NCBI GenBank assembly: GCA_013153495.1
Contig: JAADEH010000001.1
Span: 62,001-126,000, forward strand
From: Aquificota bacterium
GTDB taxonomy: Bacteria > Aquificota > Aquificia > Aquificales > Aquificaceae
DNA length: 64,000 nucleotides
Direction: 5' to 3'
The notes under the pieces were generated by a model. The model saw nothing but the letters and a program-made list of their open reading frames with translations. It was not told where the DNA came from and ran no database searches. Within the stretch, counting starts at the first letter, position 1; each line of letters begins with the position of its first letter. Positions 45,254-46,494 of the stretch are shown here, one piece after another. The position numbers and the translations under genes were made by a program.

Positions 45254-45763
45254 GTGGCGCTTAGGCTGGGGGACATACTCAGGGAGGCGGGACTCACTGA
45301 GGTGGAAAAAGGCTTCCCCAAGTATGCGGTTGGATGGTATGAGGAGGAAAAACTCTGGAAAACTATAGAGCCTTTTCATTCTCGGGGCTGGAACCTTGTT
45401 AAACACCGTCCCTTCATGGTGGTGCACACGGACCCTCAATACGTTTACTTTATCCTCTTCTCTAAAAGTAGCTACATGTTCAGGTGCAGGAGAGACAAAG
45501 AATACGGTATAGAGGACAACACCCCGGAGGTGGACTTTCAAAAGTGCGACCTCAGAGACGAACTCCCCTGTTCTAAGCTCGAGGAAAAAGGAAAGCTCTT
45601 TAAGAGAATATTTGACGGCGACTGCTGGATAGTTTTGAGAATAAACAGGATGTTCTTGCAAGAGGGTAGCGTGGTATGTGGTGTGTGTTCTGGGGAGGCA
45701 ATCCCGCAGGTTGTCGAGGGCATTATTCAAAGGGAGCTTGAGAGGTGGAAGAGGATAGACTGA
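45254..45763 (+). CDS. Hypothetical 169-aa protein, first gene of the CRISPR-linked operon; weak MazF/PemK-like look
   Basis: GTG start; KHRPFMVVHTDPQYVYFILFSKSS; overlaps the next gene by 19 bp. Confidence 0.7.
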   Translation: MALRLGDILREAGLTEVEKGFPKYAVGWYEEEKLWKTIEPFHSRGWNLVKHRPFMVVHTDPQYVYFILFSKSSYMFRCRRDKEYGIEDNTPEVDFQKCDLRDELPCSKLEEKGKLFKRIFDGDCWIVLRINRMFLQEGSVVCGVCSGEAIPQVVEGIIQRELERWKRID

Positions 45764-46494
45764 GGCAACTTTTGGAGAGACTCTTAAATGGCAACATAAG
45801 TGAAAGGGAGTATAAGGCACTTGCAAGCTATCTTGCGGGTATGCTCAAAGGGGTGGCTGAGGGGATAGCTCTTGAGCGGGGGAAAGAAACGAATATCCTG
45901 AACCTTATAGGTAGAAGACTTCCCCAAGGAGAGAACGTTCTCGGGTATCTGGTAGAGGAACTTTTTGTTCACATACTCAGTAAAAGGGAAAGATTTAAAA
46001 ATCTCTTAGACGGAAACCAAAAGCTCAAAGCGTATCTTGCAACAACCGTAAGAAACTTCCTCTACGACACCTTCAACAAGCTCAATCGTAGTGTGGAAAC
46101 GGTTTTGGAAGATGACATCAAAACGGGAGACCCCCAGGAAGATGCGGATAGAACCCTGTCGGGTTCAAATATGGAAGTTTTTCTTAAAGATGTAAGGAGG
46201 GTCGAACTTTTGGAACTTGAAGAGCTGGTCTCGAAGCTCCTTAAAAAGGAGGAGTTTAAGTATCTATGCTATAAACTTGACTCGAAGCGTTATAAGTGCC
46301 TGTGGGAAGGCAGAAGCGATGATGCGGTTTATCAGGATTTCAGGAGAAAAGGAAGGGAGGTTATGAAAAAACTTGCAAAAGCTTTTAGAGAGGCAAATGT
46401 TAGAGAAGAGCTGTTTGAAAAATACACGAAAATATATCTGTCAGAGCTTTGTGAAAAACTCCGTTCAGAAATATGTAAGGGAGATGAAAAATGA
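45745..46494 (+). CDS. ECF-sigma-like protein (CalpS-like candidate)
   Basis: Region-2-like QKLKAYLATTVRNFLYDTFNKLNR; region-4-like SDDAVYQDFRRKGREVMKKLAKAFREA; ATGA overlap with the next gene. Confidence 0.7.
   Translation: MEEDRLRQLLERLLNGNISEREYKALASYLAGMLKGVAEGIALERGKETNILNLIGRRLPQGENVLGYLVEELFVHILSKRERFKNLLDGNQKLKAYLATTVRNFLYDTFNKLNRSVETVLEDDIKTGDPQEDADRTLSGSNMEVFLKDVRRVELLELEELVSKLLKKEEFKYLCYKLDSKRYKCLWEGRSDDAVYQDFRRKGREVMKKLAKAFREANVREELFEKYTKIYLSELCEKLRSEICKGDEK

Follow-up and report, generated by a model that had tools for sequence, protein, structure and literature searches.

Here we asked what the sigma-like protein encoded in a CRISPR operon of an Aquificota bacterium is, and how the signal that would set it free is switched off. 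The window, the whole 64,000-nucleotide stretch of contig JAADEH010000001.1 that was analyzed, carries the operon on its forward strand with the following genes and motifs.

45254..45763, + strand: orf1, 169 aa, conserved fourth gene of Calp operons (HMM of 19 classical orf1 proteins, E 2.7e-8)
45745..46494, + strand: calpS, divergent ECF-type sigma factor (CalpS HMM, ECF profile alignment, and AlphaFold two-domain helical model)
46024..46089, + strand: region 2-like helix of CalpS, LKAYLATTVRNFLYDTFNKLNR, residues 94-115 (hhalign to ECF region 2; Pfam Sigma70_r2 stretch 69-115)
46315..46395, + strand: region 4-like helix-turn-helix of CalpS, SDDAVYQDFRRKGREVMKKLAKAFREA, residues 191-217 (aligned to ECF sigma region 4)
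46491..47348, + strand: calpT, predicted anti-sigma factor and protease substrate, 285 aa (PADLOC CRISPR-T, E 9.6e-9; HMM of 19 CalpT, E 8e-29)
47341..49053, + strand: calpL-crn2, Lon protease-SAVED-Crn2 fusion, 570 aa (PDB CalpL 7qda, E 5.3e-16; HMM of 19 CalpL, E 2.1e-47)

A sigma-like protein in a Calp operon

The calpS open reading frame has a GTG start and encodes 249 amino acids, among which both peptides that the first-pass annotation had singled out are present verbatim. The genes orf1, calpS, calpT, and calpL overlap in turn by 19, 4, and 8 nt, with a 9-nt gap then separating calpL from cas6. At 29 other loci, the corresponding operon slot is filled by a CalpS homolog that shares conserved alignment columns. 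Because calpS overlaps both of its neighbors and its homologs are conserved at this position, we regard it as a real gene. The proposal of an ECF-like sigma gene inside a CRISPR operon is supported; calpT and calpL follow calpS in overlapping order. Standard annotation does leave the protein without a name, as anticipated: no Pfam model matches above cut-off, PADLOC returns no sigma match or other match of relevance, and phmmer finds no relevant match in the PDB.

Calp operons were gathered from 136 Aquificota genomes, and HMMs were built only from the 19 classical loci. At one of these, L056, the CalpL is identical to PDB 7qda over residues 2-496, and the locus was therefore taken as the characterized one of Sulfurihydrogenibium sp. 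YO3AOP1. Among the 276 window ORFs, the classical-locus HMMs have significant matches to the expected Calp ORFs only, with CalpS matched at E 9e-21. Homologs of CalpS, CalpT, and CalpL are thus encoded together in the window, as in a Calp system, and classical operons share the order orf1-calpS-calpT-calpL with those in which CalpL is fused to Crn2. Since window ORFs are matched by all four classical Calp HMMs, the product of 45745-46494 is, on sequence grounds, an ortholog of CalpS from the type III CRISPR Calp system (CalpL/CalpT/CalpS), an already-known kind of protein. This identity with the known CalpS was missed at first pass. The YO3AOP1 system (7qda; PMC11417357) shares with the window the calpS-calpT-calpL order (L056), the Lon Ser-Lys dyad, an ECF-type CalpS, and a CRISPR neighborhood; the two CalpS proteins are 21% identical in the alignment. 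In CalpT, a candidate cleavage patch, LPLSASEQ, aligns with HVASTSQ of YO3AOP1 CalpT.

Is CalpS a sigma factor? In an hhalign comparison, the all-CalpS profile matches an Aquificota ECF sigma profile with a score of 37.6 over 158 columns; reversing the profile gives 16.2, and none of 60 column shuffles exceeds 19.3. The two motifs previously placed at sigma regions 2 and 4 do fall on ECF regions 2 and 4, collinearly and in order, with no region 3, the arrangement of an ECF sigma factor; the call of a divergent ECF-sigma-like protein is upheld by this alignment. Within the region 4-like motif, Y196 and R201 are invariant across 30 CalpS. SigW (5wuq) and SigE (1or7) have the same region order and motifs, but CalpS is far more divergent, its linker is long and disordered, and it has an additional helix at the C-terminus. 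The best curated-model match of the window protein, Sigma70_r2, has an E of 0.021 and 15 bits against a cut-off of 24, with no region 4 match; Sigma70_r2 is also the Pfam family matched by most members of the CalpS alignment (7 of 30). Since the curated Sigma70 models are not reached, we call CalpS ECF-type, in that it would work like one, rather than a member by those models.

Structure prediction had been suggested as a check for sigma2 and sigma4 helical domains, and AlphaFold gives two confident helical domains with a disordered linker between them (pLDDT 82.8), so that the refuting outcome named there, a structure devoid of such domains, did not arise. A whole-chain Foldseek search gives a best E of 1.7, which is non-significant, and sigma factors, including SigE 1or7 and Thermus sigma A, make up approximately 14 of the 34 weak matches. 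The lack of a significant match is probably due to the flexible linker. SigW is the top PDB profile match, also non-significant.

The profile built from fused-clade CalpS alone matches ECF sigma factors weakly, so the sigma claim rests on the CalpS family as a whole. Taken with the below-cut-off Sigma70 match and the non-significant fold search, this could instead mean that fused-clade CalpS has drifted from the ECF sequence and serves CalpT as an antitoxin-like or scaffold partner, not as a working sigma factor. We consider this highly improbable: once all CalpS are included, regions 2 and 4 are collinear with the ECF profile, and the conserved region-4 motif is common to the window CalpS and the characterized CalpS. 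As an ECF-type sigma factor, CalpS would act with host RNA polymerase. A Sigma70 promoter scan of the operon found none, against 3.5 expected by chance, and approximately 20 nt lie between orf1 and the likely start of a divergent hydrogenase gene.

Very probably, then, the window operon is a Calp signaling operon in which CalpS is freed by cA4-triggered CalpL, with Crn2 replacing the SAVED shut-off. In the uninfected cell, CalpT would hold CalpS. Upon infection, the type III CRISPR complex would make cyclic tetra-adenylate (cA4) and thereby activate CalpL, whose Lon domain would cut CalpT and release CalpS, and free CalpS would steer RNA polymerase toward new promoters. In the fused lineage, the C-terminal Crn2 of CalpL would then destroy cA4 in place of the SAVED shut-off. 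Activation by cA4, CalpT cleavage, and CalpS release are carried over from work on relatives, where signaling of infection by sigma factor release has been shown experimentally (PMC11417357, PMC12751052). Calp is a CRISPR alarm pathway whose output is transcriptional, and the way in which its signal is turned off is under active study.

The CalpL-Crn2 fusion and its SAVED part

The window CalpL is divided into three parts.

47341..48045, + strand: Lon-type protease part with a Ser150-Lys189 dyad (S152/K193 of PDB CalpL), invariant in relatives
48073..48696, + strand: SAVED part lacking equivalents of H345, H392, K364, S391, S451, and R/K361 (CalpL alignment; Pfam SAVED, E 0.0044)
48703..49050, + strand: Crn2/AcrIII-1 ring-nuclease domain (DUF1874, STIV B116-like; PF08960, E 5.7e-21)

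The Lon dyad is kept in all nine fused CalpLs that cover the Lon part and in the 19 classical CalpLs. The Crn2 domain matches PDB entries 2j85 (E 2.5e-16) and 6scf (E 9.3e-15), and its His502 aligns with catalytic H47 of AcrIII-1, a position that is Ala in 6scf, so the domain carries both DUF1874 and the His47 equivalent. Six positions (S466, H502, R521, Q536, R540, and E543) are invariant in 10/10 fused CalpLs; these we take to be the Crn2 active-site set, partly on general background for the family. By sequence the domain shares its fold, His47, and other active-site positions with AcrIII-1/Crn2 (STIV B116 and SIRV1 gp29; 2j85, 6scf). It differs from them in being fused to a host effector rather than occurring as a free viral or cellular protein.

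CalpL-Crn2 fusions occur in 9 of the 136 Aquificota genomes, that of the window and eight further. The further fused CalpLs are 37-43% identical to the window protein, and the copy in G061 is cut by the contig end. The nine full-length proteins form a single clade with support of 100/100, and from this tree we assign the fusion a single origin. A plasmid search for CalpL found none, and a genome-wide scan with one usable pattern returned loci in Aquificota only. Free-standing Crn2 genes are found in other Aquificota (L015, L016, and L029), encoding proteins 42-52% identical to the fused domain, and these are a possible source of the fusion. Separately, genome G063 carries both a fused and a classical Calp operon (L039 and L070), and G013 has three copies of the fused operon (L040, L041, and L042), of which two are immediately followed by cas10.

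The Crn2-fused CalpL is a previously undescribed variant of the Calp system and the new part of this locus. The literature on CalpL and Crn2 that was covered contains no CalpL-Crn2 fusion; Rouillon 2023 and Smalakyte 2024 lie outside that coverage and may hold a prior mention. The Crn2 fusions described in the literature searched are to Csx1 only (PMC7293037, PMC12409355, PMC9704534). In Csx1-Crn2 of Marinitoga piezophila (PMC7293037), too, a CRISPR effector activated by cA4 carries a C-terminal Crn2 that curbs the effector's own signal, an activity that for CalpL-Crn2 is predicted. The effectors differ in type, as Csx1-Crn2 is a CARF-HEPN ribonuclease and the window CalpL is a Lon-SAVED protease controlling a sigma factor.

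Fusion to Crn2 coincides with a changed SAVED part. All 19 classical CalpLs retain H345, K364, H392, S391 (S or H), S451, and R/K361, and all 10 fused ones lack them. Between the two clades, SAVED aligns at only approximately 20% identity, with ambiguity near H392, but the fused clade has no conserved His in that stretch. In YO3AOP1 CalpL, mutating H392, R361, or K364 abolishes or cripples ring-nuclease activity (PMC11417357). Compared with that protein, the window CalpL has gained Crn2 and is without the SAVED ring-nuclease residues H345, H392, and K364. Because these residues are absent, we treat the window system as a variant, and the residues are not defining for the protease-sigma pathway. 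From the alignment we infer that the intrinsic SAVED shut-off has been replaced by the fused Crn2, which would serve as a timer of the signal.

With nearly all of the known SAVED residues for cA4 contact or oligomerization gone from the fused CalpLs, Crn2 might both sense cA4 and time the signal. SAVED would then no longer bind cA4, and dimerization of Crn2, itself a dimeric cA4-binding domain (PMC12409355), around the ligand would activate Lon. This seems quite unlikely to us. The fused-clade SAVED part is as conserved as the Lon part (mean pairwise identities of 46% and 43%, respectively) and, close to its C-terminal end, shows invariant residues not shared with the classical clade, which suggests that it retains a job. 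A rapid cleaver would also make a poor sensor, and Csx1-Crn2 has two separate sites competing for cA4 (PMC7293037). A clade whose shut-off residues are gone and to which a separate ring nuclease has been fused is a natural experiment on the need for signal destruction, and the fused ring nuclease together with the lost SAVED residues is the part of this locus worth following.

The fourth gene, orf1

A gene for an orf1 relative lies 5′ of calpS in 28 of the 29 operons with enough upstream sequence and is missing only in G017. The relatives range from 139 to 234 aa, and 12 of the 28 match PADLOC C3a162, a family without known function. The window protein has an RP motif and four conserved cysteines (C98, C106, C142, and C145), which suggest a metal site. 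Its AlphaFold model is confident (pLDDT 87.6, pTM 0.82), but Foldseek against the PDB gives no fold match, and we therefore claim no fold for it. Its RP and LTT motifs had pointed to a MazF-like identity, which was abandoned because the PDB gave no match and the orf1 profile shows no similarity to that of CalpT. Being retained in all but one of 29 operons, orf1 is a concrete missing part to seek in the Calp mechanism.

A broader reading combines this gene with the fusion. The fused clade would be a distinct subtype in which SAVED lacks both the ring-nuclease residues and the usual cA4 contacts, and a captured viral-type Crn2 times the sigma factor; the Calp system in general would have four genes, with the cysteine-rich orf1 protein as a further component. 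We give this combined reading an even chance.

Cas genes and the source of cA4

Downstream of calpL, the window contains the following CRISPR-associated features.

49063..49851, + strand: cas6, 9 nt after calpL (PF10040, E 2.7e-21)
49735..50463, - strand: conserved 242-aa ORF beside cas2'-cas1-cas2 (found in 8/136 Aquificota genomes)
50451..50705, - strand: second cas2 (PF09827, E 2.7e-9)
50702..51577, - strand: cas1 (PF01867, E 1.2e-56)
51578..51838, - strand: cas2 (PF09827, E 6.1e-19)
52145..52742, no strand assigned: CRISPR array, 9 repeats at 66-75 nt spacing, the last degenerate

Signaling by Calp would depend on cA4, and the window's assembly was searched for an effector complex that could make it. 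A tblastn search with a Cas10 found none, and the sole match of the Csm1 model is a GGDEF protein; three of the six Cas10-palm matches are likewise GGDEF proteins, inside the window. No RAMP genes were found, and no Cas3 above cut-off. As no cas10, RAMP, or cas3 gene is recognized, the cA4 source is unproven in this assembly, although absence of Cas10 and RAMP genes is not proven either because the assembly, in 12 contigs, is 91.5% complete.

These results raise the alternative that the operon is a relic, the strain having lost its type III effector complex so that Calp receives no signal. Cas10 is present in 8/8 of the other genomes with a fused CalpL, and fused calpL is directly followed by cas10 in G013, G058, G060, and G061, whereas in the window it is directly followed by cas6. 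On the other hand, the window has intact copies of all four Calp genes and of cas6, cas1, and cas2, with catalytic residues retained, effector genes may sit in a gap of the incomplete assembly, and in at least G017 cas10 is on the same contig but approximately 23 kb from calpL. We regard a relic as possible but somewhat doubtful, and favor a working signaling operon.

Other observations concern the adaptation genes. The short CRISPR array (52145-52742) belongs to an assembly that yielded no effector complex. The 3′ end of the 242-aa ORF runs antisense over the end of cas6, alike in several genomes, and a short stretch of this ORF, YREPRECVNLFLS, resembles a Cas1 motif. We do not claim that the ORF is a dead Cas1 paralog, as its profile score is no better than those of shuffles. 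Two cas2 genes flank the one cas1 (50451-51838), and the same cas2-cas1-cas2' layout is present at L039, L046, L121, and L122.
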